DNA of 64,000 nucleotides from Leptotrichia sp. oral taxon 212 (GTDB taxonomy: Bacteria > Fusobacteriota > Fusobacteriia > Fusobacteriales > Leptotrichiaceae), in NCBI RefSeq assembly GCF_001274535.1, contig NZ_CP012410.1, positions 1,709,126-1,773,125 on the forward strand, read 5' to 3'. Positions within the stretch are counted from its first letter, which is position 1; each line of letters opens with the position of its first letter. This document shows positions 4,077 to 41,740 of this stretch, piece after piece. The position numbers and the translations under genes were made by a program. The notes beneath the pieces were generated by a model. The model was not told the origin of the DNA, searched no databases, and was given only the letters and a program-made list of their open reading frames with translations.

Positions 4077-5051
4077 CTATACTAATACTTTTTCCTCTGC
4101 ATCATAACCATTTATAGTTTTAACTGATTTTTTCTTTTCATCATTTCTGTTATCTTTCTTTTTAACTTTTCTGAATTTTCTCATCAGATAAACTAACGGA
4201 CTTGCTACAAATATTGAAGAATATGTTCCAAAAACCATTCCAATGAACAGAGTCATATTAAATGTTCTTAAGGATTCTCCTCCAAATATGAGCAATATTA
4301 CGACTGAAAATAATGTTGTAATTGATGTATAAAGCGATCTCATGCATACCTGATTTACACTTATCTCTATAATTTCTTCAAAACTTTTCTTGTTATGCTT
4401 TTCTTTTTCATTTTTCTTGTCATTTTCCCTTATCCTGTCAAATATTACAATCGTATCATTTATCGAATAACCTAGGATAGTAAGTATTGCCGCTATAAAT
4501 GGCGTATCCACTTCGTATCTCAGCAATGCTATCAGCCCAATTGAGATTATTACATCGTGTAATAACGACAATATTCCAGCTACTGCATAGATAAACTCAA
4601 ATCTTACTGTTACATAGATTACAATAAGTATACTTCCTATTATTAAAGCCCATACTGCATTTCTTGTCAGCTCTTTTCCTATTGTAGCTCCGACAGTATC
4701 GTATCTTACAATTTCATATTTTCCAGTTTTTTCTGTTAATTTATTTAACAGATTACTTTTCTGTACTTCAGAAAGCTGTCCTGTTCTAAGAATCATTGTA
4801 TTATCATCACTTGAAATCTGTACTTTCTTTTTTCCAAGCTCCGGTATATCATTAGTCAGATTATCCAGTGCCTTATTTATTACATCCTTATTCACGGTTT
4901 TTTCATACTTAACCTGTAACAGATCTCCACCTTTAAAGTCAATTCCAAGATTCAGTCCTATCGTAAGGAAGAATATTAGTGACAATACTACCATTAAAAT
5001 TGAAAATCCTATGTAAATATTTTTATAACGTATTACTTTCAAATTTACCAT
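4077..5051 (-). CDS. secF: Protein translocase subunit SecF
   Basis: Sec accessory membrane protein that, with SecD, uses the proton-motive force to help pull secreted proteins across the inner membrane. It has an N-terminal helix (about residues 12-30), the periplasmic segment beginning GLNLGIDFKGGDLLQV, and a five-helix RND-like bundle from about residue 130 to 290 with TILGYSINDTIVIFDRIREN, the SecF signature. The C-terminus is a lysine-rich tail. The ATG at 5051 lies 7 nt behind GGAGGG and overlaps the secD 3' end by 29 bp, so the two are probably translationally coupled. Confidence 0.96.
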   Translation of the reverse strand: MVNLKVIRYKNIYIGFSILMVVLSLIFFLTIGLNLGIDFKGGDLLQVKYEKTVNKDVINKALDNLTNDIPELGKKKVQISSDDNTMILRTGQLSEVQKSNLLNKLTEKTGKYEIVRYDTVGATIGKELTRNAVWALIIGSILIVIYVTVRFEFIYAVAGILSLLHDVIISIGLIALLRYEVDTPFIAAILTILGYSINDTIVIFDRIRENDKKNEKEKHNKKSFEEIIEISVNQVCMRSLYTSITTLFSVVILLIFGGESLRTFNMTLFIGMVFGTYSSIFVASPLVYLMRKFRKVKKKDNRNDEKKKSVKTINGYDAEEKVLV

Positions 5052-6252
5052 CTTTTATCCCTCCCCAAAATAGTTTTTCTTTTTTTATTTTAAAATTATC
5101 TATTACAAAGTGCATAAACAGTTTTGTTATAAATATTGCTGTAAGCATTGTTATCATTACCCCTAAAGACAATGTTACCGCAAATCCCCTTACAGGCCCT
5201 GTTCCAAAGAAGAATAGAACTGCCGCTATTAATAATGTAGTAAGGTTCCCATCAATTATTGCAGGAAGACCATTTTCAAACCCTTTTTCCACTGCATCGT
5301 CAATACTGTATCCTTTAGCCAGCTCTTCCTTAATTCTTTCAAATGTAATAACATTCGCATCAACTGCCATTCCAAGTGTCAGTATAAATCCTGCTATTCC
5401 AGGCAATGTCAGAGTCGATCCTACCAGACTCAATGATGCCAGTACTAAAAATCCATATATTGCAAGCACGACATCTGCAATCAACCCAGGGATTTTATAT
5501 ATTACAAACATGAATATTGATATTGCTATCATTGCCAGTATTCCTGCAAACTGTGTCTGTTTTATGGATTCAACACCAAGAGTTGCTCCCACTGTTCTGA
5601 CTTCAAGTATTTTTATACTTACAGGTAGTGCTCCTGATTTTAGAAGATTTGTAATATTTTTAGCATCTTCACGGGTATTTGTAGTAATCTGACCTCTTCC
5701 TCCAGGTATCTCAGAGTTTATTACCGGTGCAGACTGTTCCTTACCATCAAGCATTATTGCAAGAGGTTTTCCTATATTTTCTCTTGTAATTTTTGCAAAA
5801 ACTTCCGCTCCTTTACCATCAAGCGTGAAATCAACTGCGGGACGGCCAAATTCTCCCTGAGAAAGTACTGCTGTTTTTATAGCTGAACCTTCAAGTAAAG
5901 TAGGACCATATGTTCCATCCTGATTTTTTATTTTAAATTCCAGTTTTGCCGTTGTCCCTATAAGTTCCACAGCCTTCTGGGAATCCTTTATTCCGGCAAG
6001 TTCCACTATCAGTCTGTCATTTCCGCTTATTTGGATTACAGGTTCCGTTACTCCCAGACCATCTACCCTTCTTTCAATTATATCCCTTACTTTTTCCATT
6101 GTATCTGATTCAATTTTTCCCTGTGCCTGAAGCACTACTGATGTTCCACCTCTCAAGTCCAGCCCCAGCTTTATTTTATTAAAATAAAGTATTACAGCAG
6201 GAACTATGAGTATGACTAAAAGCCATAAATACTGTGTTTTTCTGTTCTTCAT
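5023..6252 (-). CDS. secD: Protein translocase subunit SecD
   Basis: Partner of SecF in the Sec holotranslocon. An N-terminal helix at about residues 8-25 is followed by KLGLDLRGGTSVVLQ, a periplasmic region with ERRVDGLGVTEPVIQ, then the SecD membrane core with LTLGMAVDANVITFERIKEE at about 290-310 and GTGPVRGFAVTLSLG near the end. At 409 residues it is shorter than the roughly 600-residue enterobacterial SecD and has only the compact periplasmic domain. Stop overlaps secF; upstream neighbour is ruvX, 49 bp away. Confidence 0.96.
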   Translation of the reverse strand: MKNRKTQYLWLLVILIVPAVILYFNKIKLGLDLRGGTSVVLQAQGKIESDTMEKVRDIIERRVDGLGVTEPVIQISGNDRLIVELAGIKDSQKAVELIGTTAKLEFKIKNQDGTYGPTLLEGSAIKTAVLSQGEFGRPAVDFTLDGKGAEVFAKITRENIGKPLAIMLDGKEQSAPVINSEIPGGRGQITTNTREDAKNITNLLKSGALPVSIKILEVRTVGATLGVESIKQTQFAGILAMIAISIFMFVIYKIPGLIADVVLAIYGFLVLASLSLVGSTLTLPGIAGFILTLGMAVDANVITFERIKEELAKGYSIDDAVEKGFENGLPAIIDGNLTTLLIAAVLFFFGTGPVRGFAVTLSLGVMITMLTAIFITKLFMHFVIDNFKIKKEKLFWGGIKDGKFESNTL

Positions 6253-6301
6253 TATCTTCCTTTCCCAAATTTCTATTTGTTTTATATAATAATCTATTAA
6301 A

Positions 6302-6718
6302 TTATTTCAATGTATCAAGATATTTCTGAAGTATTATTGAAGCTGCAACCATATCCACCACTTTTCTTCTTTCCTTACCATTTTTTTTTGAATAGTTTTT
6401 CAGGTAATGTTCCGCTTCTGTCGTTGTGTATCTTTCATCTACAGCTATAACTTCTATTCTTTCTATTTTTTCTTTCATTTCAGAAATAAATTTTTCTACC
6501 TTTTCAGCCTGTAAATTTTTCGTTCCATCCAGGCTTTTCGGCATTCCTACTACAATTTTCCTAGTTCCCTCATCAGAAAGTATTTCCTTTATTCTTTCTA
6601 TGGGATCTGTAACATTTCTGTCTATTACTTCAAGGGCTGTCGCAAGAATTCCCAGAGGATCACACTTGGCAACCCCTATTCTGACATCTCCGACATCAAG
6701 CCCTATAAATTTTTTCAT
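6302..6718 (-). CDS. ruvX: RuvX/YqgF family putative Holliday-junction resolvase
   Basis: RNase H-fold protein of the YqgF/RuvX family, implicated in Holliday-junction resolution and pre-16S rRNA end maturation. It shows the N-terminal GLDVGDVRIGVAKCDP with the first catalytic aspartate, GMPKSLDGTKN in the middle, VDERYTTTEAE with the catalytic D/E pair, and a late aspartate in VVDMVAASIILQ. About 138 residues is typical. The frame opens at TTG 6724; the ATG at 6718 behind GAGAGG is preferred. Sits between alaS and secD; alaS-ruvX adjacency is common in bacteria. Confidence 0.92.
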   Translation of the reverse strand: MKKFIGLDVGDVRIGVAKCDPLGILATALEVIDRNVTDPIERIKEILSDEGTRKIVVGMPKSLDGTKNLQAEKVEKFISEMKEKIERIEVIAVDERYTTTEAEHYLKNYSKKNGKERRKVVDMVAASIILQKYLDTLK

Positions 6719-6759
6719 TTTCAAATATCCTCTCGTTTTCTTCTAGTAATATCAGTAAT

Positions 6760-9372
6760 TTAAGACAACTGAGAAACTATGTATTCAAAGGCTTTTTCAA
6801 CTGCCTGTCCTACAGCGTTTCCATCTTTTCCACCCGCCTGAGCAAAATCAGGTCTTCCGCCACCGTTTCCACCTGTAACCTGTGCAGCAACTTTAACAAT
6901 GTCCCCTGCCTTTACTTTAGAAATAAGATCTTTAGTTACTCCTGCCACAAAAATGGCTTTTTCATTATCTGAACCAAGTATAATTACTCCACTTTGAAGT
7001 TTTTCCTTTCCTCTATCCACTATTTCCTTCAGTTCATCAATACTCTTATTTTCAAATGACTTCTTTAGAACTTTTATTCCATTTACTGTATCTACATTTT
7101 CAAGAAGTTCATTAATTTCATATTTTACAAGTTTTGCCTGTAACTGCTCAAAAGATTTTAAGGCTGCCTTTGCATCGGAAATATATTTTTCTACGATATC
7201 TACCACATTTCTTTCATCTGTTTTAAGCATACCTGCTATTTTATCCAGTTTCTCTTCCAGATTATTTACATAACTTAAGCTCTTATGCCCTGTAGTTGCA
7301 GTTATTCTACGTGTTCCCGAGGCTATTCCGCTTTCTGATTCGATATTGAACAGTCCAATTTCTCCAGTTGATTTTACGTGTGCTCCTCCACAAAGCTCTA
7401 TTGAAAATTCAGGAATTTCAACTACTCTGACAACATCTCCATATTTATCTGAAAATAACGCCATTGCTCCTCTGTCTTTTGCATCCTGAATATTTTCATA
7501 TCCTATTTTTACCGGAATATTCGCAAGTATTATATTATTTGCCTCTTTTTCAATTTCATTCAGCGTTTCCCTTGAAATAGGTTCATAATGTGAGAAGTCA
7601 AATCTCAGTCTTTCATTATCAACAAGTGATCCTGACTGCTCTACATGTGTTCCCAGCTTTTCCCTAAGAACTTTATGTAATATATGTGTTGCAGTATGAT
7701 TTCTCTGGATGTCCTTTCTTCTTAAAACATCTATTTCCAGCTTCGCTTCTTTTCCCAATTCAGGTACTATTCCTCTTTCCACTTCAACCTGATGTACAAA
7801 TACATCTTTTTTCTTTGCAACACCTACAACTTTCCCAATAAATTCTCCAGATGTTACTGTTCCAGTATCTGAAACCTGTCCTCCTGATTCAGCATAGAAC
7901 GGTGTTCTGTCAAATATCATTTCATATCCGCTAATTCCGTCACTTTTTGAAACATACAGTACTTTTCCTGTATCTTCAAATTTTTCATATCCTACAAATT
8001 CTGTCTTACCGTGTTTTTCAAAAAATTCATCAATAAACTCATCTTTTATCATATCAGAAATTGTAGTTCTGCTGTCCTTTGATCTCTGAACCTGTCCTGC
8101 AAGTTTTTTCTCAAATTCCTCTTCTGATACTTCCATTCCCTGTGTTTCAACAATTAATTTTGTTAATTCAAATGGAAATCCGAAAGTATCGTATAATTTA
8201 AATGAAATATCTGATGAAAGTTCTTTTTTATTTTCCCCTTTTAGTTTAATAATTTCGCTTTCAAGAAGTTCTGTTCCATTTTTCAATGTATTTGAGAATC
8301 TTTCTTCTTCTATTTTTATTACTTTTTCTATATATTCTGCCTTTTCAGGAAGTTCAGGATATCCTTCCTTCATAGTTTCCACAACATATGAAACCAGTTT
8401 ATGAAGAAATATGTCTTCCTTTTCAAAAACCTTTCCTTTAGCCGCACTTCCTGCTCCAAACGCTCTTCTTATTATTTTTCTCAGTATATATCCTCTTCCT
8501 TCATTTGAAGGAAGAACTCCGTCACATATAAGGAATACTGACGCTCTTATGTGATCAGCTATTATTTTTACTGTCTCATCAAAGTCTTCCTTCTTTATAT
8601 CCAATACCTTTTCAATTCCCTGTATTATTGGCATAAATAAATCTGTTTCAAAATTTGTTTTCTTTTCCTGAATAACCGAGGCTATTCTTTCAATTCCTGC
8701 TCCTGTATCTATATTTTTTTCAGGAAGTGGAACCAGTGTACCGTCTTCAAGCCTATTCCATTCTGTAAATACAAGGTTCCATATTTCAAGGAACCTGTCC
8801 CCTTCATCTCCAGGTTTTGAGTTTATTTCTTCATTATTTTTACCCATATTCTGAGTGTCATAATATATTTCACTACATGGTCCACATGATCCGACAGGCC
8901 CTGCCGCCCACCAGTTATCATCTTCACCAAGTCTTACAAGTCTTTCTTTTGGTATTCCTATTTCCTCATTCCATATTCTGTATGCTTCATCATCTGTTTC
9001 GAAAACAGAAACCCATAATCTTTCTTTATCCAGTTTAAGTACTTCTGTTATATATTCCCATGACCATTCTATCGCTTCTTTTTTGAAATAATCTCCAAAC
9101 GAAAAATTTCCCAGCATCTCAAAAAATGTATGGTGTCTAGGCGTTCTCCCTACATTTTCCAGATCATTTGTTCTTATACACTTCTGATAAGTTGTAATTC
9201 TTTTAAAAGGTGCTTCCTTTTCTCCGAGAAAAAACGGTTTAAAAGGAACCATCCCTGCAACCGTAAGCAGTAAACTCTTATCATCAGGTATAAGTGATGC
9301 ACTTTCAAAATGTTTATGTTCTTTAGATTTAAAGAAATCCACAAAACTTTTTCTTAATTCATTTCCTGTCAT
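6760..9372 (-). CDS. alaS: Alanyl-tRNA synthetase
   Basis: Charges tRNA-Ala with alanine and edits mischarged Ser/Gly. The order of domains is complete: catalytic core at about residues 1-240 (opening FVDFFKSKEHKHFESASLIP, with GPCSEIYYD), tRNA-recognition region, editing domain with the metal-binding HTATH near residue 570 and CGGAH near 675, and C-terminal DHHA1-like domain with GGNGGGRPDFAQAGGKDG near 840. 870 residues is full length. No T-box-like leader is present: only 29 bp separate it from lptB, so it is transcribed with the mutS-lptB group. Confidence 0.98.
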   Translation of the reverse strand: MTGNELRKSFVDFFKSKEHKHFESASLIPDDKSLLLTVAGMVPFKPFFLGEKEAPFKRITTYQKCIRTNDLENVGRTPRHHTFFEMLGNFSFGDYFKKEAIEWSWEYITEVLKLDKERLWVSVFETDDEAYRIWNEEIGIPKERLVRLGEDDNWWAAGPVGSCGPCSEIYYDTQNMGKNNEEINSKPGDEGDRFLEIWNLVFTEWNRLEDGTLVPLPEKNIDTGAGIERIASVIQEKKTNFETDLFMPIIQGIEKVLDIKKEDFDETVKIIADHIRASVFLICDGVLPSNEGRGYILRKIIRRAFGAGSAAKGKVFEKEDIFLHKLVSYVVETMKEGYPELPEKAEYIEKVIKIEEERFSNTLKNGTELLESEIIKLKGENKKELSSDISFKLYDTFGFPFELTKLIVETQGMEVSEEEFEKKLAGQVQRSKDSRTTISDMIKDEFIDEFFEKHGKTEFVGYEKFEDTGKVLYVSKSDGISGYEMIFDRTPFYAESGGQVSDTGTVTSGEFIGKVVGVAKKKDVFVHQVEVERGIVPELGKEAKLEIDVLRRKDIQRNHTATHILHKVLREKLGTHVEQSGSLVDNERLRFDFSHYEPISRETLNEIEKEANNIILANIPVKIGYENIQDAKDRGAMALFSDKYGDVVRVVEIPEFSIELCGGAHVKSTGEIGLFNIESESGIASGTRRITATTGHKSLSYVNNLEEKLDKIAGMLKTDERNVVDIVEKYISDAKAALKSFEQLQAKLVKYEINELLENVDTVNGIKVLKKSFENKSIDELKEIVDRGKEKLQSGVIILGSDNEKAIFVAGVTKDLISKVKAGDIVKVAAQVTGGNGGGRPDFAQAGGKDGNAVGQAVEKAFEYIVSQLS

Positions 9373-30851: not shown

Positions 30852-31697
30852 TTACTTAATTTTCTTCAATTTCAGAACTACAATCTCAGGCTGTGCAAAA
30901 AATCTTATAAACATCTCAAAAGCTCCGCCACCAACACCTGAAGTAGTATAAATCTTATGTCCGTCATATTCCTTCAGACCGTAGCCATATTTCCATGGAT
31001 GTTTAATCTCAGCATGCAGTATCAGTCCAAACAGCGTTATCTGCCCACCATGAGTGTGCCCTGCCAAAGTCATATCTGCCCTTTCCTTCTGTTTATCTGT
31101 CATATATTCAAAATATTCAGGATTATGTGTAATGAAGATATTAAAATCATCTTTTTTTATTCCTTCAAGTGCTCTATCTGCGTCAGGTTGTCCTTTCCGC
31201 AAATCATCAACTGCTGAAATATAAATACTTTGATTATTTATCATAATTTTATCATTTTCATTTACTAAAACCTTATATCCAAGTTTTTTCAGCTCAGCTA
31301 TATTTTTTCCCACAGAATTATAATCATGATTTCCCAAAACTGCATAAATTCCATATTCAGGTTTTTCCAGTTTTTCCATTCCCTTGTAAAATCTTGGAAT
31401 TTTTCCTGTCCAGTTAGTGTAATCTCCACCAAGAAGTATAATATCTTTTTCCTGCTCATTTACAAGTTTGATAATTCTGTCAAGCTGCTTCTGATTAAAT
31501 CTTGAATAAGTGTCCAGCTGGAAATCTGCCAGAAATACAATTTTCTTTCCGTTAAATTCCTCTGGAATATCTTTTGAAACAACTTCTATTGTTTTTACCT
31601 TTAGCTGTGTATACTCATAATGTGCATATATCAGACATATTGTAAAAAATACTGCTAAAATTGTAAAAGCTGATAATATTATTTTTCTATTTAACAT
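30852..31697 (-). CDS. Membrane-anchored metallophosphoesterase (copy 1)
   Basis: Calcineurin-type phosphoesterase, YkuE-like, with one N-terminal helix (about residues 7-25). Metal-site motifs are FLADFQLD near 52 (D-x-Q in place of the commoner D-x-H), LLGGDYTNW near 95, VLGNHDY near 122, ITHNPEY near 190 and AGHTHGGQITLFG near 213. The substrate is unknown; relatives act on lipid or nucleotide phosphates. A close paralogue at 39715-40557 shares nearly every motif, so the 8-gene cluster between them is bracketed by homologous genes in the same orientation. Confidence 0.88.
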   Translation of the reverse strand: MLNRKIILSAFTILAVFFTICLIYAHYEYTQLKVKTIEVVSKDIPEEFNGKKIVFLADFQLDTYSRFNQKQLDRIIKLVNEQEKDIILLGGDYTNWTGKIPRFYKGMEKLEKPEYGIYAVLGNHDYNSVGKNIAELKKLGYKVLVNENDKIMINNQSIYISAVDDLRKGQPDADRALEGIKKDDFNIFITHNPEYFEYMTDKQKERADMTLAGHTHGGQITLFGLILHAEIKHPWKYGYGLKEYDGHKIYTTSGVGGGAFEMFIRFFAQPEIVVLKLKKIK

Positions 31698-31820: not shown

Positions 31821-32750
31821 TTACACTCTAATCAACAGTAAATTTGTAGTAAGTCCTGCTGCAGTTCCTATGAGCAATATTGTATCCCCATTTTTTATTT
31901 TCCTATTCTCCAGCCCATGAGCCAACGCAAGCGGAACAGAAGCTGAAACCATATTACCAAATTCTTTTACTTCATTTATAAACCTGTCTTCGGGTACACC
32001 TAACTTTTCCATCACAATAGGCATGGCCACACTTGCCTGATGTGGCACCACCATATCAATGTCAGATATTTTCATGTCATTATTTTCTAAGAACTCCTTC
32101 ATCATTTCAGGAATCTTTTTCATAGACAGTGACAGTACAGTTTTTCCATTCATATCAAACATAAATTCTTCCTTTGTTTCTTCAGAATAGTTTTCAGGAT
32201 GAAGGTTACTAAGTCCTCCTCGAATCTCAGTAGAATGTGCCCCTTCCGACCATGTTTTCTGCATAGCATCTATAACTCCTATTTCCTTATCAGTTTTTTC
32301 AATAATAAAGGCTACCGCACCATCACTGAAAAGTTGAAAGCTTTCCTTCTGCTTGGGATTCAAGGCTCTTGAAGCAACATCACATGAAAAAATCAATACT
32401 CTTTTATATCTTCCGGCTTCCAGAAGATAAGACATGGTATCCAGAGCTGTCATAAAACTTGTACATGTCGTATTTATATCAAGTGCAGGAATCGATGTCC
32501 CCTTTGCAATTTTTTCATGAATTAAAGCCGCCATACAGGGTATCGGCTGTATTCCGACTGCACTTGCTGAAACTATGCAGTCAATATCATTAACTGTAAT
32601 ATTGGCATTTTCCAGTGCTTTTTCACATGCTGAAACAGTAAGGGAAATCTGCTTTTCTCCACCGCTTATTCTGTAACGTGTCTGCCCGTCAAAATCAACT
32701 GTATTTCTTGGCAGTTCCACTCCATACCCTGTAAATTGTATTTTTCTCAT
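31821..32750 (-). CDS. Ketoacyl-ACP synthase III-like enzyme of the 8-gene cluster
   Basis: Thiolase-fold condensing enzyme of the FabH/KAS III type, 309 residues. The catalytic triad is visible: Cys96 in DINTTCTSFM, His237 in VVPHQAS and Asn266 in EFGNMVSASVP. The GTAAGLTTNL end is family-typical. The cysteine surroundings differ from housekeeping FabH, and the gene is embedded in a biosynthetic operon, so a dedicated role joining acyl units (acyl-CoA or acyl-ACP with malonyl-ACP or another acyl) is likely. Last gene of the operon; one-base overlap with the upstream adenylating-enzyme gene. Confidence 0.88.
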   Translation of the reverse strand: MRKIQFTGYGVELPRNTVDFDGQTRYRISGGEKQISLTVSACEKALENANITVNDIDCIVSASAVGIQPIPCMAALIHEKIAKGTSIPALDINTTCTSFMTALDTMSYLLEAGRYKRVLIFSCDVASRALNPKQKESFQLFSDGAVAFIIEKTDKEIGVIDAMQKTWSEGAHSTEIRGGLSNLHPENYSEETKEEFMFDMNGKTVLSLSMKKIPEMMKEFLENNDMKISDIDMVVPHQASVAMPIVMEKLGVPEDRFINEVKEFGNMVSASVPLALAHGLENRKIKNGDTILLIGTAAGLTTNLLLIRV

Positions 32751-34021
32751 TATATTACCTTCCTTATTACCCTTTTTAATTTAACTGTCCTATCTACTTT
32801 GTAATCTATAAATCGTATTTTTACATTTTCTATATCTAAAGAAGCAAATAATTTATTAAATTCTTTTTCTATTAACTCTTTCTGCTCCTCATTTATATTT
32901 AAAACAGCTATTTCCAATAAATCGTCATTTACTTGGAAAACCTGATATTCTCTTATATTTTCAACAAAAAGTACTGTTCTTCTGATAAAATCAGGAAATA
33001 CTGTAATCTCCTTGCCGTATTTATTTATAAATTTAAAAATATCATCTGAACGGCCTTCTATTTTCTCAATTTTCTGCAAAATTGAACCACATTCACAAAT
33101 TCCTTCCGATTCAACCAGAATATCGTTTAAATAATATTTTACAAAGGGCTGGCTTGTTCTCCTGAAATCTGTAATTATTGGATAAAATCTTTTTTCATCT
33201 ATATATTTTTTATCAAATTTTATCAAATCCTCATTTAAATGTAAATGTCCATATTCACATGTACAGGCTAAAAATCCTTCTGTTGCCTGATAAATCTGAT
33301 GTATTATTTTCTGATTAAACTGCTTTTTTATATATTCTTCATCAGATTTTTCCAAAATTTCCGCAACAGAAATAATTCTCTTTACAGAAAATTTCAACTC
33401 TCCTTCTTCAATTTTTTTAGCAAGTACCAGAAGTAATGAAGGAGGCGCAACTATCATTGTCGGCTGATATTTATTTAATCTTTCAATATGTTCATCAGTA
33501 TCTTTAAAAGTATCAAAATACTCCAGACTTATTAAAAATGAATTTACAGCTTTGTACAGATCATTGTCCGCCCTTAGAAAAAAGGCTATTTTATGACCGA
33601 GAATATCATTCCTTGGAAACATTTTCGCTAAAATAGTTCCTGCCCATATTCCCTGTTCTTCCGGAGTTGTTATGAACATTCCCCTGTGACCTGATGTCCC
33701 TGATGAAAGTCCTACAGAAATATCTTTATATTTTTGACTGAAATTTCTAGTTTTTTCACTGTTTAAGGCAATTTCCATAGCCTCATCCCTTTTTACCCCT
33801 AAAGTGTTCAACTCATCAAAGTTTTCCATCATAAAGACCTTATTCATCGTAAATTCTTCTTTAATCTCATGATTTTTAAAATATGGAGAGTTCTCCTTTA
33901 AAAATTCCAGATGTTTCCTTACCTGCTTTTCCTGATATTCTAAAAGTTCATTTCTTGAAGTCCATTTACTGAAATATCTGACTTTTATGAAAGTTGACAC
34001 AATTTTAAATATTTTTCTCAT
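32750..34021 (-). CDS. PaaK/F390-synthetase-like adenylate-forming enzyme
   Basis: 423 residues of the ANL superfamily branch holding phenylacetate-CoA ligase, coenzyme F390 synthetase-related proteins and LuxE. The ATP loop SSGTSGHRG is at 106-114, YQATEGFLAC near 257 contains the adenylate-site motif, YYLNDI near 297 precedes a CECG pair, and GRSDD near 322 is the hinge aspartate region. It probably activates a carboxylic acid, perhaps the product of or substrate for the adjacent KAS III. Which acid and which acceptor (CoA, ACP, alcohol) cannot be read. Start overlaps the upstream stop by 17 bp. Confidence 0.8.
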   Translation of the reverse strand: MRKIFKIVSTFIKVRYFSKWTSRNELLEYQEKQVRKHLEFLKENSPYFKNHEIKEEFTMNKVFMMENFDELNTLGVKRDEAMEIALNSEKTRNFSQKYKDISVGLSSGTSGHRGMFITTPEEQGIWAGTILAKMFPRNDILGHKIAFFLRADNDLYKAVNSFLISLEYFDTFKDTDEHIERLNKYQPTMIVAPPSLLLVLAKKIEEGELKFSVKRIISVAEILEKSDEEYIKKQFNQKIIHQIYQATEGFLACTCEYGHLHLNEDLIKFDKKYIDEKRFYPIITDFRRTSQPFVKYYLNDILVESEGICECGSILQKIEKIEGRSDDIFKFINKYGKEITVFPDFIRRTVLFVENIREYQVFQVNDDLLEIAVLNINEEQKELIEKEFNKLFASLDIENVKIRFIDYKVDRTVKLKRVIRKVI

Positions 34022-34829
34022 TTAATATCCTTCTTATCTTTTCTTTATTATCATGGCTGACAACTACAGAAATATTATCTTCTATAATTTTTTTCAGCAA
34101 ATTGCTTCCCTGCCTGTAATCCTCAAAATTATTCTGGATTTTTCCGGGAAGCCATTTCATTTTATCTGTCAGGGTTAAATATTCAGTCCCCCAGCATACA
34201 TCAGCCGCAATAAATAGATTTTTCTCCGGCATAAATAAACATCCCTGCCCTTTTGCATGTCCACCTATTTCAACCATTAACATAGATGAATCAGAAAATA
34301 AATCGAAACTTTCCTTATATGGAAACAGCTTGTTTTCCTTATAGTTTTTTATTAATGTCAATCTATTTTCAAAATCATCTGGAAACAATTCATTAAAAAT
34401 TAGAAAGTTATCTTTTCCTGACTTGAGGCTATTATAACAAGCTTCAGTTAATATTAAATTAGAATTTGGAAAAAATTTTAATCCTCCAATATGATCAGGA
34501 TGTAAATGGGAAATAATTATATATTTTATTTCTTTCCTGTCTATTCCTCTTTTTTCAAGCTGAAAATCAATAATATCTTCCCTTTTCAAGGTAACAGGAT
34601 TAACAATCCTGTATAAAAGACATTTAGGATTATTTTTTAAAATATCCATGGAATAACCTGTGTCATAAAGAATATAGCCGATTTTTCTATGTTTAATCAA
34701 AAAAACTCCTGCATAAAAATCAGTTATTGTCTTATCAAAGCCTTTAAAAATTTTTTTTAAATCACTTGTGCAATATCCACAGCCAAAATAATCAACTGTT
34801 TCTATCATTTTTTCTGCTGTGTTCAACAT
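34005..34829 (-). CDS. Metallo-beta-lactamase-fold hydrolase, lactonase-like
   Basis: 274 residues. The metal ligands are in SHLHPDHIGG (His108, His110, Asp112, His113), a later GGHAKGQG and IAADVCW, and a final histidine in VVVSHDN. The layout is close to the N-acyl-homoserine-lactone lactonase branch, whose third motif is GHTPGHQ-like. In this operon it could hydrolyse a lactone or thioester intermediate, or serve for tolerance to the product; both are inference. The ATG at 34829 is 9 nt behind GAAGGAG and overlaps the upstream gene by 38 bp. Confidence 0.8.
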   Translation of the reverse strand: MLNTAEKMIETVDYFGCGYCTSDLKKIFKGFDKTITDFYAGVFLIKHRKIGYILYDTGYSMDILKNNPKCLLYRIVNPVTLKREDIIDFQLEKRGIDRKEIKYIIISHLHPDHIGGLKFFPNSNLILTEACYNSLKSGKDNFLIFNELFPDDFENRLTLIKNYKENKLFPYKESFDLFSDSSMLMVEIGGHAKGQGCLFMPEKNLFIAADVCWGTEYLTLTDKMKWLPGKIQNNFEDYRQGSNLLKKIIEDNISVVVSHDNKEKIRRILNEKNI

Positions 34830-35775
34830 ATTTTTTCACTCCTTCAATTACAGAGATTTTTGGATAATATCCTAATTCTTTTTTTGCCTTGTCAATATTC
34901 AAAGTCTGGCTGTATCTCATCAAATATAATGTATATTTAGTAAGAGGTGGCTCTTTTTCAATTCTGAAAAATCTGTAGACTCTTTCCATAAATGAAACAA
35001 GAGGAAAAATTAAATTATAGTTCCATTTCAGATATTTTCCTTCTGTGCCGATTTCATTGAAAAATAAAGTTAAAATTTCCTTGAACTCTATCGGTTCATC
35101 ATTTGTAATATTGTATATTCCTCCTAGATATTCATTATTTTCTAATGCCAGCCGTAAGGCATAGGCAACATTTTCAACACAGGTTATATCAACTTTCTGT
35201 TTACCATCTGCAAAAAGAGGAATCCCAATTTTTTTATTTAAATCCAGAAGCCTTGGTATTATGCTCGTATCTCCTATGCCAAACAGTCCACGAGGACGAA
35301 TTATCATATAATTCAGACTGGAAGATTTTATTAATTTTTCTGCCATAATTTTGCTTTTTATGTAAAAGTTCAGGTTATTTTCTTCAGGTGCTTCATCTTC
35401 TCTGACGTCTAACTGATCCTTTGCTCCTGCATATATACTCGGAGAAGAAACAAAAACCAGTTTCAATTTTTTCTCTTCACAAAGCCGAATAATATTTTCT
35501 GTTCCTAACACATTTATATTGTAGAATTTTTCCCATTTCCCCCATACAGTGGAAAGTGCTGCCGCATGAATAACAGCTGAACAGCCTTCAGACGCTCTGA
35601 ATAAATCATCTAAATTTTCGATATTTCCTTTATAAAATGCTACATTTTTATCAGTCAGTGTTTTTCCGATTTTTCCATTTCTTCCAAAGGCAATTACCTT
35701 ATAATTGTTATTCTTCAACTCATCAATCACGTATTTTCCTAAAAAACCTGTTGCCCCTGTAAGCAAAACTTTCAT
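34792..35775 (-). CDS. Extended SDR (NAD-dependent epimerase/3-beta-HSD type)
   Basis: 327 residues with the Rossmann motif TGATGFLGKYV at 6-16 and the catalytic Tyr138/Lys142 in NFYIKSK, plus VSSPSIYAG for the serine region and IRPRGLFGIGD near 170. The sequence fits the 3-beta-hydroxysteroid-dehydrogenase-like group that includes OleD-type beta-keto-acid reductases, rather than sugar epimerases, but the substrate is not decided. In the operon a role in reducing a beta-keto product is natural. Overlaps both neighbours. Confidence 0.82.
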   Translation of the reverse strand: MKVLLTGATGFLGKYVIDELKNNNYKVIAFGRNGKIGKTLTDKNVAFYKGNIENLDDLFRASEGCSAVIHAAALSTVWGKWEKFYNINVLGTENIIRLCEEKKLKLVFVSSPSIYAGAKDQLDVREDEAPEENNLNFYIKSKIMAEKLIKSSSLNYMIIRPRGLFGIGDTSIIPRLLDLNKKIGIPLFADGKQKVDITCVENVAYALRLALENNEYLGGIYNITNDEPIEFKEILTLFFNEIGTEGKYLKWNYNLIFPLVSFMERVYRFFRIEKEPPLTKYTLYLMRYSQTLNIDKAKKELGYYPKISVIEGVKKYVEHSRKNDRNS

Positions 35776-37049
35776 TACTTTCCTCCCTTTAACAGCCTGT
35801 CAATTTCCTTTTTCAATACTTCATCCGGCGAATATTTATTAAAGTCCTTTGACATTTTTCCCAGATTATTCCATTCTTTTCTTTGTATCATCTTCTCAAA
35901 AGAATTTATTATACTCTTTCCCGATTTCAGCTTAGCTGGAATTCCAATTTCTGCCAGATCAGCTCTTACTGCATAATCAAACTGATCATAATCATGAGGT
36001 ATAATAACAGCAGGTTTATTATATTTTATACAGGAATAAAGTACTCCTGTCCCTCCATGATGAATTACATAATCAATTTTAGGTAAAACCTCGTCATAAT
36101 CCAGATAATGATAAATATGTAAATTATTTTCCTTTATAATTTTCTTATTCCTTTCCAGATAGCTTCCCAGCGAGACTACAAATAAAAATTCAGGATATAA
36201 TTTTGAAAGTTCCTCCGCTACATCAGTCATTGATTTTTTAGCCCATTTTAAATGAGTACCGTTTGTCATAAATACAGTCTTTTTGTATTTTTTATCCTTT
36301 TCAAATTTTATACTGTCCTTGAAAAGAGATGAACAGCATGGTCCTGCCCAAATAAACTGTTCCGGAAAATCATCCCTGAATTCAAATTCTTTCATTCCTA
36401 AGGCCAGTATAGAATAAGGAGAGTATATATTTTCCTCACCCTTTTCATTATACAGGGTAAAACTTAATTCTTTTATCTGCTTTCTTAAAATCAGACAGAT
36501 CAGTTTTTTATAATTTCTGATGATATTTCTTGCCAGTTTATCTCTTAATTTAAAGAAAAAACCATCTCGCGGGTACAGTCCTCCGACATAGGCAGGTGCT
36601 GTTGTCTTAGATTCTATTGCAAAAGGAGTTGGAATACTTGTAATCCATGGAATATTTAATTTTTTACATATAATCCCGGCTGGAACAGCAGTAAAATCTA
36701 CCAATACTATATCAGGCCTTCTCTCAGAAAAAAAATTTTCTGTTTCTTTTATAATTTCCGGCATGAGCTTCAAATTTTCCTTAAACTGTCTATATGCAAT
36801 TACAGGATTTGTCTGTCTTTCCGTATCGGATATTTTTTCAAAAACATCAGGCTTATCCTTAAGTAAAACCTTTACAGGAAATCCTAACTTTTTAACTACT
36901 TCTTCCTTATGAAATCCCGTATAAATACATATATCATATTTATCTTTTTCTCTTAAGAGAGGAATAACCAGCTCTAAAATGGGATAAAGATGTCCACTGA
37001 AAGGTGGTGCGACAACAGCAATTTTAATTTTTTCCTTGTAAATATTCAT
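35775..37049 (-). CDS. UGT-type (GT1) glycosyltransferase
   Basis: 424 residues with the GT-B arrangement of macrolide/UDP-glycosyltransferases. The N-terminal acceptor domain opens AVVAPPFSGHLYPILELV; the nucleotide-sugar domain has IDYVIHHGGTGVLYSCIKY near residue 331 and PAVIIPHDYDQFDYA after it. Family members add a sugar to a hydroxyl of a lipid or natural product. It overlaps the upstream hydrolase-like gene by 26 bp. Together with the GT2-fold enzyme at 37640-38845 it suggests a product carrying two sugars or two glycosylation steps. Confidence 0.85.
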   Translation of the reverse strand: MNIYKEKIKIAVVAPPFSGHLYPILELVIPLLREKDKYDICIYTGFHKEEVVKKLGFPVKVLLKDKPDVFEKISDTERQTNPVIAYRQFKENLKLMPEIIKETENFFSERRPDIVLVDFTAVPAGIICKKLNIPWITSIPTPFAIESKTTAPAYVGGLYPRDGFFFKLRDKLARNIIRNYKKLICLILRKQIKELSFTLYNEKGEENIYSPYSILALGMKEFEFRDDFPEQFIWAGPCCSSLFKDSIKFEKDKKYKKTVFMTNGTHLKWAKKSMTDVAEELSKLYPEFLFVVSLGSYLERNKKIIKENNLHIYHYLDYDEVLPKIDYVIHHGGTGVLYSCIKYNKPAVIIPHDYDQFDYAVRADLAEIGIPAKLKSGKSIINSFEKMIQRKEWNNLGKMSKDFNKYSPDEVLKKEIDRLLKGGK

Positions 37050-37665
37050 AAATTATTTTCTTCACCTTTCTGTTCCTAAAATATTCCAGATGTCCACAAT
37101 TTACAACTTTATCAGTCTTATGAAAATCTAAAATCCAGCTGTAGATATCAGAAATCCCTTTAAAAACTATCGTATTCCTTACTTTACCAAAACCTTTTCC
37201 AACAGGTCCCAAGGCAAATATTTTTATATTTTCATTTTTACAGCCTGATAAATCCATAAATCTCTCCCATACATTCAAACCTGAACTTTGTGAAATTACT
37301 ATAACGTCTTTTAGAAATTGTAAAGGAGACAGATGCCTTAAAATTTCCTTTTCAAATCTTTTATCAAAAAGAGTGCGGTTATAATAAACTATATTTGACA
37401 AACTTGCCTTTAAAATATTTATATCTTCAAACCCTTTATAATCAAAGTCTTCATTATATGGAAAATTTGAATTTATAACCTTGTAACCAAATTCTTTAAA
37501 AATATTCAGCATTTCAAATCTGTCGGGTTTTAATGCCGCTGTTTTAAGATTACTGCTTCCGCTTATGACAAGAACAATCCTGTCTTCCTTTAAAAGAGTT
37601 CTTGAAACATCAAGACTTCCCAGTTTTTCTAAATATTCCTTAAAGTTCATAGTGTATTTTCCCAT
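37024..37665 (-). CDS. Possible alpha/beta hydrolase of the 8-gene cluster
   Basis: 213 residues, no close family recognised. It opens with a beta strand VLVISGSSNLKTAA, has a possible nucleophile elbow VIVISQSSGLNVW near residue 125 (SQSSG in place of GxSxG), FALGPVGKGFG near 152 and a C-terminal NCGHLEYFRNRKV where hydrolases keep the catalytic histidine. I read it as a diverged alpha/beta hydrolase, perhaps an esterase or acyltransferase; this is weak. Overlaps of 26 bp on both sides tie it to the two glycosyltransferase genes. Confidence 0.55.
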   Translation of the reverse strand: MGKYTMNFKEYLEKLGSLDVSRTLLKEDRIVLVISGSSNLKTAALKPDRFEMLNIFKEFGYKVINSNFPYNEDFDYKGFEDINILKASLSNIVYYNRTLFDKRFEKEILRHLSPLQFLKDVIVISQSSGLNVWERFMDLSGCKNENIKIFALGPVGKGFGKVRNTIVFKGISDIYSWILDFHKTDKVVNCGHLEYFRNRKVKKIIYEYLQGKN

Positions 37666-38845
37666 CTTTAACTCTAATTTTTTTATTTCTCCATATAATT
37701 ACAGGCGGAGTCAAAAAAGTATACATAAGCATAAAAGGAAGCATAAATTCACTTATTAATTCATACAGCAATTGAGTAATCTGAAATAAAAGAGTCATAA
37801 AAACCGTTTTTTCGGATTTTTTCTCCTTCTCTTCTCTCTTCACTCTGTAAATAGATAATCTGATAACATAAAATAATACAACCTTGCTTATGAATAAATA
37901 AAACACAGTTAATAAATAATTTATCCCTAAATAAAAACTTAAAAATAACAGCATTGTCGGCAATATAGTCGGAAGTAATATCATGAATAAAAAGTTTACA
38001 GAAAAAGCATTTTTCATGTATACATTTCCAAATAAAAGCCATCTTTTCATAAGAAGTATATATTTTTTTAAATCTGGAACGGTATTTCTCACATTGCAGA
38101 AAATAGTGCTCTGTATAATTCTTACATTTTTTGAAAGTAAATAGGTTGCAAGAGCCAGATCGTCACAAAGCCAGTATTTTATTTCTTCAAAAGCATTGTA
38201 TCTTTTTAGGATATCAGTCCTTAAAATATAGAACATTCCGTTAATAGTCCTGTTTTCCTTCAGAAATGACATAGAAAAATAAGAAAAAATGGAATTGGAA
38301 TTTATAAAGGCTGAAATTAACTTTGAATAAAAACCGCTAATATTGCTGTTAAAAGGAATTCCCGTTGCTATCCATTCAGATTTATCTTTTTCATAGATAC
38401 TTAATTCATCCAATCTTTTTCTATCCATAACCGAATCATCATCTATAATTATTGTGTACTCTGTTTTTATCTTATCCACAATTTGAGCCAGCTTAAATAT
38501 TTTTGGATTTACTTCCTGTGGAACATCATCTAACTTATAAACTTCAACTCTGTCAGAATAGTTTTCCTTTTCCAAAATTTTTTCAACTGTTTTTATAGCT
38601 GTACTGTCACTTTTATCCAAAAGCCAGATAAATTTCATATCTTCTGTATTTTTTAAATTGGCAGTCAGATCTTCTTCCAATCTTGTGTCACCCGACAGAA
38701 TAGGCTGAACTGCTGTATAATTACTTTCATTTATTCCAGTTTTTTCTAAATTATTTATTTTCTGAAAGTAGATGAAAGAAAATAACGATTTCAAAACAAA
38801 TAAAGTTACAGTCAGTCCAAGCAAAAAATTAAATAACAATATCAT
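37640..38845 (-). CDS. Ceramide-glucosyltransferase-like membrane GT
   Basis: 401-residue membrane glycosyltransferase with GT-A fold. An N-terminal helix (about 1-22) precedes the catalytic domain: VQPILSGD opening, IIIDDDSVMD near 135 as the DxD site, CDDLALATYLL near 228 and LLMKRW near 265 in place of the (Q/R)xxRW motif. Three to four helices follow. This order matches GT21 ceramide glucosyltransferase and bacterial HpnI-like relatives, which act on lipid acceptors at the membrane. Four-base overlap with the SDR gene upstream. Confidence 0.83.
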   Translation of the reverse strand: MILLFNFLLGLTVTLFVLKSLFSFIYFQKINNLEKTGINESNYTAVQPILSGDTRLEEDLTANLKNTEDMKFIWLLDKSDSTAIKTVEKILEKENYSDRVEVYKLDDVPQEVNPKIFKLAQIVDKIKTEYTIIIDDDSVMDRKRLDELSIYEKDKSEWIATGIPFNSNISGFYSKLISAFINSNSIFSYFSMSFLKENRTINGMFYILRTDILKRYNAFEEIKYWLCDDLALATYLLSKNVRIIQSTIFCNVRNTVPDLKKYILLMKRWLLFGNVYMKNAFSVNFLFMILLPTILPTMLLFLSFYLGINYLLTVFYLFISKVVLFYVIRLSIYRVKREEKEKKSEKTVFMTLLFQITQLLYELISEFMLPFMLMYTFLTPPVIIWRNKKIRVKDGKIHYEL

Positions 38846-39615
38846 TTAATCACCTTTTTTAAAATTACTCCTGCGAGTCTTAACTGCAGCGAAATTGGTA
38901 ATAAATTTATTAAAAACATAGACAGTTTATTTCTAAATCCAATAATGGAAAATCTTTTCTTCTTTTCTATCATTTTTATAATTTCTTTAGCCACATCTTC
39001 TGAAGTCATCATAAATTTTTGTGAACTTCCAAATTTTTCCTGCGTATCCTTATTAAAAAAGTTACTTGCTGTTGGACCTGGACAGACTGACAGAACCCTT
39101 ATATTTTTATTTTTATGTGACAATTCTTCATCCAGTGCCAAAGAATAATGTAACAGTGCGGATTTTGCCGAACTATATATTGCCATATATGGATGCTGAT
39201 ATAAGGCGGCAGTCGAACAGACATTTAAAATTATTCCTCTTCCCTCCTGTAAAAATTTTTCTGAAAATTTTTTAGTTAAAATTAACGGAGAAATAAAATT
39301 TACATTTACAGTATTCAAATCTTCTTCATCACTTAATTTCAGAAATTCAGTAATCTTTCCTATACCTGCACAGTTAATAACTAAATCCACGTCACAGTTT
39401 TCAGTAATGCTCTCCAGATCACCAGTATCAGTTAAATCATATTTTATACAAATACATTCAAGCAAAGAATTTTTTTCTTCCAGTTCCTTTTTCAGTAGAT
39501 TAAGTTTATCAATAGACCTTGCCAGCAAATACATTTTTCTGCTTCTTCCTGCCAGATTTCTTGCTAATTCTTTTCCAATCCCTGAACTTGCACCTGTTAT
39601 TAAAATTTTTTCCAT
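38842..39615 (-). CDS. Classical short-chain dehydrogenase
   Basis: About 257 residues. TGASSGIG (7-14) binds the cofactor, NCAGIGKI is the NAG-like motif, VCSTAA holds the serine and IYSSAKSAL near 148 the Tyr/Lys pair; SVCPGPTASNFF follows. The C-terminus is hydrophobic (LSMFLINLLPISLQLRLAGV), suggesting membrane association as in lipid-active SDRs. The frame opens with TTG at 39645; the ATG at 39615 behind AAGGAT is preferred. It is the promoter-proximal gene of the eight. No strong promoter is evident between it and the upstream phosphoesterase, so transcription may begin further upstream. Confidence 0.85.
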   Translation of the reverse strand: MEKILITGASSGIGKELARNLAGRSRKMYLLARSIDKLNLLKKELEEKNSLLECICIKYDLTDTGDLESITENCDVDLVINCAGIGKITEFLKLSDEEDLNTVNVNFISPLILTKKFSEKFLQEGRGIILNVCSTAALYQHPYMAIYSSAKSALLHYSLALDEELSHKNKNIRVLSVCPGPTASNFFNKDTQEKFGSSQKFMMTSEDVAKEIIKMIEKKKRFSIIGFRNKLSMFLINLLPISLQLRLAGVILKKVIK

Positions 39616-39714
39616 TATTTCTACATCCTTACTTTTTACAGTCAAATAAGTTGTTACAATATTAAATTATATATATTTTTTCATTCATTTGATTTCTATA
39701 TATTTCTAAAAGTC

Positions 39715-40557
39715 TTAAATTCTCTTCAGCTCAAAAATCACAATTTCAGGTCTGGCAAAAAATCTTATGAACATTTCAAGAAAAGCACCACCTAATCCTG
39801 AGGTAATATATATTTTATGACCGTTATATTCCTTCATTCCATAACCGTATTTCTTCTTATTTTTTATTGCTGAGACAACGATTTTTCCAAAAAATGTTAC
39901 CTGTCCGCCGTGAGTATGCCCTGCAATGGTTATATCAGATCTTCCCTTTGCATTTTCTGACATTTCTTCAAAATATTCAGGATTATGAGTCATAAATATT
40001 ACAAAATCTTCTTTTTGAATGCCTTCAAGAGCTTTTTCAGCATCAGGATTTCCATGCCACAAATCAGTCACTCCTGCAATATAAATACTTTTATTATTTA
40101 CAGTTATTTTTCTGTTTTCATTTACGAGAAGATTAAATCCTAATTTTTTCATATTTTCAGCAGTTTCTTCTTCTCCTGGATACTCATGATTTCCATAAAT
40201 TGCATAAACACCGAGTTCCGGAATCTTTATATCCTTAGCATCTTCATAAAACTTAGGAATATTTTTCTCCCAAGTTGCATAATCTCCTCCAAGCAGTATC
40301 ATATCTTTTTTCTGTTCATTAATCAACTCAATCGCCTTTTTCTGCTGTCTTCTGTTATATCGCGCCATTGTATCATACTGAAAATCTGCTACAAATAGTA
40401 TTCTCTTACCATCAAACTCCTTTGGCACATCCTTCGACTTTATCTCAATTGTCTTAATTTTTATATTTCTGTATTCATAATGCGAATACACTAAAAATAA
40501 TGCAATTAGTCCTAAAAAACTATATAAAATTTTAAAAATCAAACTTTTTACTTCCAT
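39715..40557 (-). CDS. Membrane-anchored metallophosphoesterase (copy 2)
   Basis: Paralogue of the 30852-31697 product. Matching motifs are FVADFQYD, LLGGDYATW, IYGNHEYPG, MTHNPEY and AGHTHGGQVTFFG, and both end in a near-identical FIRFFARPEIV / FIRFFAQPEIV segment. One N-terminal helix anchors it. The chosen ATG (40557) follows GAAGGAAG; the frame itself extends to a TTG at 40572. It lies 100 bp upstream of the 8-gene operon and 43 bp downstream of the flavodoxin-fold gene. Confidence 0.88.
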   Translation of the reverse strand: MEVKSLIFKILYSFLGLIALFLVYSHYEYRNIKIKTIEIKSKDVPKEFDGKRILFVADFQYDTMARYNRRQQKKAIELINEQKKDMILLGGDYATWEKNIPKFYEDAKDIKIPELGVYAIYGNHEYPGEEETAENMKKLGFNLLVNENRKITVNNKSIYIAGVTDLWHGNPDAEKALEGIQKEDFVIFMTHNPEYFEEMSENAKGRSDITIAGHTHGGQVTFFGKIVVSAIKNKKKYGYGMKEYNGHKIYITSGLGGAFLEMFIRFFARPEIVIFELKRI

Positions 40558-40600
40558 TTTTTCTTCCTTCAATAAATAATTTCATATAATTTAAATATTT

Positions 40601-41201: not shown

Positions 41202-41740
41202 TTAATATTCCACTTCATTATTCTTTTTACTTTCAAACAATGTCTTCTGTTTTTCGATTTCGTTTATTAATTCCTCTTCACTAGGCAGATAATTTACATA
41301 TTTACTTGCAAAGTAGATATATTTCTATCTAATATTCTTACAGACCACATATTTTTTGCTACTTCTGTCAAATAAAATATTCTGGCTTTCTCATCAGAAA
41401 CTCTTAAAACTTTCTGAAAATGAGACCATGTCAATTGTGCGAACAGTGTTCGCACTCTTTCATAATCTGAGAAATATACATACAATTTCCGCATTTCCCA
41501 TAATGTTCTTCTACTAAATCCTTTTCCAAATTCTTCTGTCAATTCTTTAGATAAATTTTCAACAATTTCTTTCCCATATTCTGCTCTTTCTCTTCGGCTC
41601 TGCTCTTCTTCTACAATTTGTCTACCAATTTTCCAATATGCTTCCACCATCGCCGAATTTACAGCGGTATATGCTTTTTGTCTAGCATTTTTAAGTATTT
41701 TCTTTATTTCATTAATGTAATTATTTGATATTTCCATCAA
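41202..41740 (-). pseudogene. YhcG/DUF1016 nuclease-family gene with internal deletion
   Basis: The frame from 41740 encodes a good DUF1016 N-terminal domain (AVNSAMVEAYWKIGRQIVEEE, GKGFSRRTLWEMRKLY, QLTWSHFQKVLRV) and stops at 41294 after SVRILDRNISTLQVNM. Intact members continue for about 200 residues with a PD-(D/E)XK nuclease domain. Shifting frame at about 41318 reads ASKYVNYLPSEEELINEIEK and on to a stop at 41202, which is the usual extreme C-terminus of this family. So the nuclease core has been deleted with a frame change. The truncated 148-residue protein may still be made. Confidence 0.8.

Follow-up and report, generated by a model that had tools for sequence, protein, structure and literature searches.

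The stretch of DNA analyzed here (the window) comprises 64,000 nucleotides of the 2.44 Mb genome of Leptotrichia sp. oral taxon 212, and its list of open reading frames holds a run of eight on the minus strand, from 31821 to 39645 (Table 1). As a preliminary description of this DNA had stated, the genes are joined by overlaps of 1 to 38 bp, which occur at all seven junctions (4, 26, 26, 1, 38, 17 and 1 bp); no ORF of at least 50 aa lies between them in the list, on which a dedicated ACP is also absent. The longest ORF for A1 spans 38842-39645 and opens with TTG, while the ATG at 39615 agrees with the 257-aa relatives in L017-L019. The arrangement is unlikely to be due to chance because the block recurs in the same order in relatives and further afield. 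Scans for promoters and terminators gave no more matches than shuffled sequences did, PADLOC returned no defense match and no phage DNA was matched; the sole phage protein match was E. coli ybjS carried within a phage record.

Table 1. Genes of the operon in the window, listed from first to last
Gene	Coordinates	Strand	Assignment	Match
A1	38842..39615	-	classical SDR, operon's first gene	PF00106, 132.5 bits
A2	37640..38845	-	GT21-like (ceramide-glucosyltransferase/HpnI-like) membrane glycosyltransferase	PF13506, 68.6 bits
A3	37024..37665	-	small alpha/beta-hydrolase-like protein	predicted fold; no sequence family
A4	35775..37049	-	GT1/GT28-type (UGT/MGT-like) glycosyltransferase	PF04101 (GT28-C)
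A5 (core)	34792..35775	-	extended SDR, OleD/3beta-HSD-like	PF01370
A6 (core)	34005..34829	-	metallo-beta-lactamase (MBL)-fold hydrolase, AiiA-like	PF00753
A7 (core)	32750..34021	-	TIGR02304 F390 synthetase-related, PaaK-type adenylate-forming enzyme	678.9 bits
A8 (core)	31821..32750	-	KAS III-like synthase	PF08541/PF08545

Pfam and NCBIfam results are consistent with the families assigned in the preliminary description. Its "possible hydrolase", A3, gains backing from a predicted structure that resembles alpha/beta-hydrolase lipases (E 4e-5, mean pLDDT 75, TM only 0.4-0.5), but neither Pfam nor NCBIfam places the protein in a sequence family. The model is moderate and the likeness to small lipases is best taken as a lead; S127, S128, G129 and H192 are invariant among relatives, and Ser127, in the motif SQSSG, is a candidate nucleophile. 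A1 is accessory, being absent from Streptococcus and from the related genome G010. The PF13506 score of A2 exceeds the cut-off of 21.7 bits and its DDD, DD and KRW motifs are visible in the sequence; A2 thus shares a GT21 domain with ceramide glucosyltransferase and HpnI, but reaches just 40 of the 310 bits set for the HpnI model (TIGR03472). The best score of A4 against the macrolide-glycosyltransferase-like model TIGR01426, 60.7 bits, is likewise under the cut-off.

Among the four remaining enzymes, only A7 passes a curated cut-off that bears on a pathway: at 678.9 bits against 251.9 it is a full member of TIGR02304 (aden_form_hyp), a family to which the library assigns no reaction and which spans more than the pathway considered here. 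E248, D300, R324 and K414 are conserved across 43 relatives, as is the phosphate loop SSGTSG with one Ser-to-Thr exception, and a Cys/His set (C255, H261, C309, C311), present in 39 or 40 of the 43 and largely lost together, probably forms a structural metal site. The predicted structure of A7 (pLDDT 89) is closest in fold to BT_0428, PaaK1, NatL2, AjiA1 and ClxA (TM about 0.6-0.7). A6 carries the dinuclear metal site HxHxDH + H + D + H, with H108, H110, D112, H113, H191, D210 and H259 retained in 43/43, and its best PDB match is the AiiA-like 2br6; the AHL lactonase models AttM (66.5/390 bits) and AiiA (37.3/375 bits) are both below cut-off. A5, in which Tyr138 and Lys142 are found in all 43 relatives, scores best with the OleD models NF042423 and NF042422 (180.8 and 178.4 bits, far under the cut-off of 580) and is a probable beta-keto acid reductase. 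The Cys96-His237-Asn266 triad of A8 is complete in 43/43, and the FabH model TIGR00747 gives 183.7 bits, short of its cut-off of 292.1. The host genome encodes a second KAS III (C1:1134720) that is 29% identical to A8, and most genomes tested have a distant KAS III paralog elsewhere besides that of the core.

Within the host family all eight genes were found in five genomes (G021, G017, G011, G015 and G006), with two of the eight ORFs in the G021 locus (L017) truncated at their ends and scored as present. Reduced blocks occur in G045 (seven genes, without A4) and G010 (five genes), and the more distant G016 and G008 have seven genes, without A3 and with the KAS gene relocated. A scan of genome contigs recovered at least 80 loci with the ligase, in Streptococcus, Enterococcus, Lachnospiraceae, Acholeplasma, Microbacterium, Jonesia, Brevibacillus, Paenibacillus and others; among the matches listed, about half of which are streptococci and hence not independent, the KAS, the OleD-like SDR and the ligase are present in 80/80 and the MBL hydrolase in 79/80. 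The four core proteins co-vary in their distances over 43 loci (matrix correlations 0.89-0.92; permutation p 0.001), partly through common species history. The conserved unit is thus a four-gene core of KAS III, OleD-like SDR, AiiA-like MBL hydrolase and TIGR02304 ligase, while A1, A2, A3 and A4 are a lineage-specific tail. Finding that the genes are never kept together in relatives had been named beforehand as the result that would count against the preliminary reading; clearly the opposite was observed, with the core kept among the matches listed. The expectation of a conserved eight-gene block, however, holds for the form seen in Fusobacteriota and Enterococcus, whereas the UGT, the GT21, the first SDR and the hydrolase are each absent in some relatives.

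Control loci delimit this linkage. With a profile built here, all eight further loci whose ligase scores at least 396 bits have the core partners, whereas the ligases of L172 and L173 (316-331 bits) and 10/10 PaaK-like ligases at about 108-148 bits (L177-L186) are without them, and the linkage is therefore specific to the clade of A7. L172 and L173 also score 282-290 bits with TIGR02304, above the curated cut-off, which is slightly too wide for the core ligase clade; the model seems to span two functions. Behind the ligase gene both of these loci carry a gene for a protein of about 405 residues that is apparently membrane-bound at its start. A P. amygdali plasmid with an F390 gene by itself was rejected as a further case, the annotated core being absent within 10 kb.

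The core was found in Fusobacteriota, Bacillota, Actinomycetota and Proteobacteria. Its four genes were recovered from Ketogulonicigenium, Paraburkholderia and E. coli in a search of plasmid records and E. coli, and Pseudomonas sp. Leaf58 has them split up. Occurrence is patchy: in the samples searched, a ligase above the TIGR02304 cut-off is present in 14/98 Fusobacteriota, in 9/398 genomes from the phylum to which Lacrimispora (L105) belongs and in 1/296 of the phylum of Microbacterium (L085), the latter two counts each including the center genome itself. In E. coli a 6.9 kb run of seven genes is carried by 674 of 5426 complete genomes (one in eight), nearly always on the chromosome, and narI and purU flank it in the two records examined (L187, 9176-16057; L194, 4001-10882). 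The run adjoins tRNA-Tyr in L194. Enterococcus proteins are closer to those of the window (SDR 59, MBL 45, ligase 55 and KAS 62% identity) than are those of G016, a member of the host's own family (45, 32, 40 and 36%, respectively), and the ligase tree is consistent with this ranking; horizontal transfer is therefore indicated. The ligase of Fusobacterium vincentii is 84% identical to A7.

Two records call for separate comment. The four core proteins of a F. vincentii record labeled as a plasmid (L192) are 77-84% identical to those of the window, and its size of 2.1 Mb suggests a mislabeled chromosome. A core beside AccB/AccC-like genes was also found in a bin labeled Candidatus Saccharibacteria (L079); Saccharibacteria genomes usually lack fatty-acid synthesis, and this core may be contamination.

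In the window, metallophosphoesterase paralogs that are 57% identical stand one on each side of the operon (30852-31697 and 39715-40572), whereas L017-L019 have the two on a single side, which places the operon in a variable spot beside leuCD. The gap between leuC and the metallophosphoesterase gene measures about 1.2 kb in G010, about 1.6 kb in G026, G029 and G024, and about 1.9 kb in G031; in G017 it is about 9.5 kb, with the operon in between. The site is thus polymorphic. A DUF1016_N fragment of 148 aa at 41294-41740 is possibly the remnant of a longer gene.

The genes that accompany the core elsewhere offer a clue to its chemistry. In Lachnospiraceae and Erysipelotrichaceae (L077, L078, L081, L083) it lies near genes of fatty-acid synthesis, namely those for biotin carrier, AccC, AccDA, FabD-like and FabF-like proteins, and a PPTase or an acyl-ACP thioesterase. 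The E. coli run has the order KAS, SDR, MBL, F390-related ligase, PAP2, FA_hydroxylase and FA_desaturase, and glycosyltransferases are absent from it. ATP-grasp and GNAT-like genes are added in loci of Bacilli and Paraburkholderia, and a divergent sulfotransferase gene is found nearby in Ketogulonicigenium. Glycosyltransferases themselves vary: the A4 type is present in most Streptococcus loci, GT21 in Lacrimispora (alone) and in L099, a UDPGT-like gene near the core in Acholeplasma and Aerococcaceae, and GT4 beside the cores of Microbacterium and L079. In L176 the ligase and KAS genes have between them a gene (4260-7133) for a protein of 957 aa that combines an AMP-binding with a phosphopantetheine domain; about 400 of its N-terminal residues have no family match. 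Such varied neighbors fit a common acyl building block that receives differing finishing steps.

On balance, and with little more than even confidence, we take the operon of the window to make a glycosylated lipid from an intermediate of fatty-acid synthesis, the core building the lipid part and the tail adding sugars. A8 would condense an acyl thioester, probably with malonyl-ACP; A6 would detach the resulting beta-keto acid from the carrier, or open a lactone; A5 would reduce the beta-keto group; and A7 would bring the carboxyl back into an activated form, acyl-AMP or acyl-CoA, ready for coupling. The product would then be modified by A1 and A3 and given one or two sugars by A2 and A4. These assignments rest on family chemistry, from which we infer the substrates, step order, sugars and product identity; the substrates of the core are guesses because characterized members were not found in the core enzymes' own families. 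The malonyl extender is uncertain since the best PDB sequence matches of A8, the ketosynthase 4v2p (206 bits) and CorB (200 bits), are interconnecting ketosynthases of the corallopyronin/myxopyronin type, which join two chains. FabH follows almost level at 190 bits, and a trans-AT PKS is absent here. The preliminary description had proposed a set that condenses, activates, reduces and glycosylates to give a glycosylated lipid or short acyl compound. This was the right type of reading, and lipid-related neighbors agree with it, but the unit is four genes, and glycosylation, varying by lineage and absent in E. coli, belongs to the operon form found here.

Two further points weigh against this path. 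Release of an acid by a thioesterase-type hydrolase, followed by its activation by a ligase, needs a reason, and the closest folds of A7 act on aromatic acids, so that an aromatic starter fits equally. Were A7 (like PaaK1, NatL2 and ClxA) to activate an aromatic acid, to which KAS III adds malonyl before the MBL enzyme hydrolyzes, the SDR reduces and the glycosyltransferases glycosylate, a small aryl glycoside would result. We consider this unlikely. The operon does share an adenylating ligase, a KAS III-like enzyme and an MBL-fold hydrolase with the PqsA-E alkylquinolone path of Pseudomonas, where they correspond to PqsA, PqsD and PqsE, and PqsE hydrolyzes the thioester. However, neither the PqsBC heterodimer nor the anthranilate ligase PqsA lies within the eight-gene run, which has an extra reductase and glycosyltransferases; A8 reaches only 105 bits with PQS enzyme chains, against 206 with 4v2p; GT21 is a lipid-glycosyltransferase family; and the desaturase, hydroxylase and PAP2 genes in E. 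coli and the fatty-acid synthesis genes elsewhere point to lipids.

Joining of two acyl chains head to head is somewhat less probable again. Reduction would then give a 2-alkyl-3-hydroxy acid, and its adenylation a beta-lactone handled by the MBL enzyme, with a branched mycolate-like lipid or a beta-lactone lipid as product; this would suit the chain-joining matches of A8, the lactonase-like A6, the nearness of A5 to OleD and a weak match of A1 to a mycolate reductase. OleABCD likewise unites KAS-type condensation, an adenylating enzyme and an SDR of the OleD type within a single run, but here the ligase matches PaaK-type families only, with no OleC beta-lactone synthetase model among its matches, an MBL enzyme stands in place of an OleB-type gene, and glycosyltransferases are present. 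In a profile match of equal length, catalytic Cys96 of A8 falls on Cys143 of the OleA chains, and Glu117, the extra catalytic residue of OleA, maps to position 70 of A8, where all 43 relatives have Ile (35) or Leu (8). Together with the low OleD score (181/580 bits), this rules out OleABCD itself. That the core makes nothing new and modifies or recycles an existing molecule, for instance by degrading or inactivating a host compound or an acyl lactone used as a signal, is very improbable: AiiA-like MBL enzymes, UGT-type glycosyltransferases and SDRs are frequent in detoxification and the spread is patchy and horizontal, but KAS III forms C-C bonds, the A8 triad is complete, and ACC, FabD, FabF and PPTase neighbors are anabolic.

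In its broader form the lipid reading makes the core a lipid pathway that is as yet undescribed and yields a product class of its own, horizontally spread over at least four phyla and completed by lineage-specific steps, a proposition for and against which we are evenly divided. The finishing steps would be the addition of sugars in the window, desaturation plus hydroxylation in E. coli and, in loci with added ATP-grasp and GNAT genes, possibly coupling to an amino acid. The preliminary description could match the combination to no named pathway, and in the open-access papers searched neither a paper on this locus nor a named pathway with this set was found; the novelty of the four-enzyme set is provisional. 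A "Coenzyme F390 synthetase" transposon mutant listed in a Pseudomonas syringae virulence screen (PMC9823363) has the name in common but need not belong to this family.

Neither family names nor the open-access papers found say what the four-enzyme set is. Should the lipid reading be true, oral commensals, gut bacteria and many E. coli strains all use this one set to make a lipid building block; because the set is compact and some of its carriers can be cultured, the product is directly findable. Members of TIGR02304, which databases call "F390 synthetase-related" for want of a better name, would thereby gain a first function.
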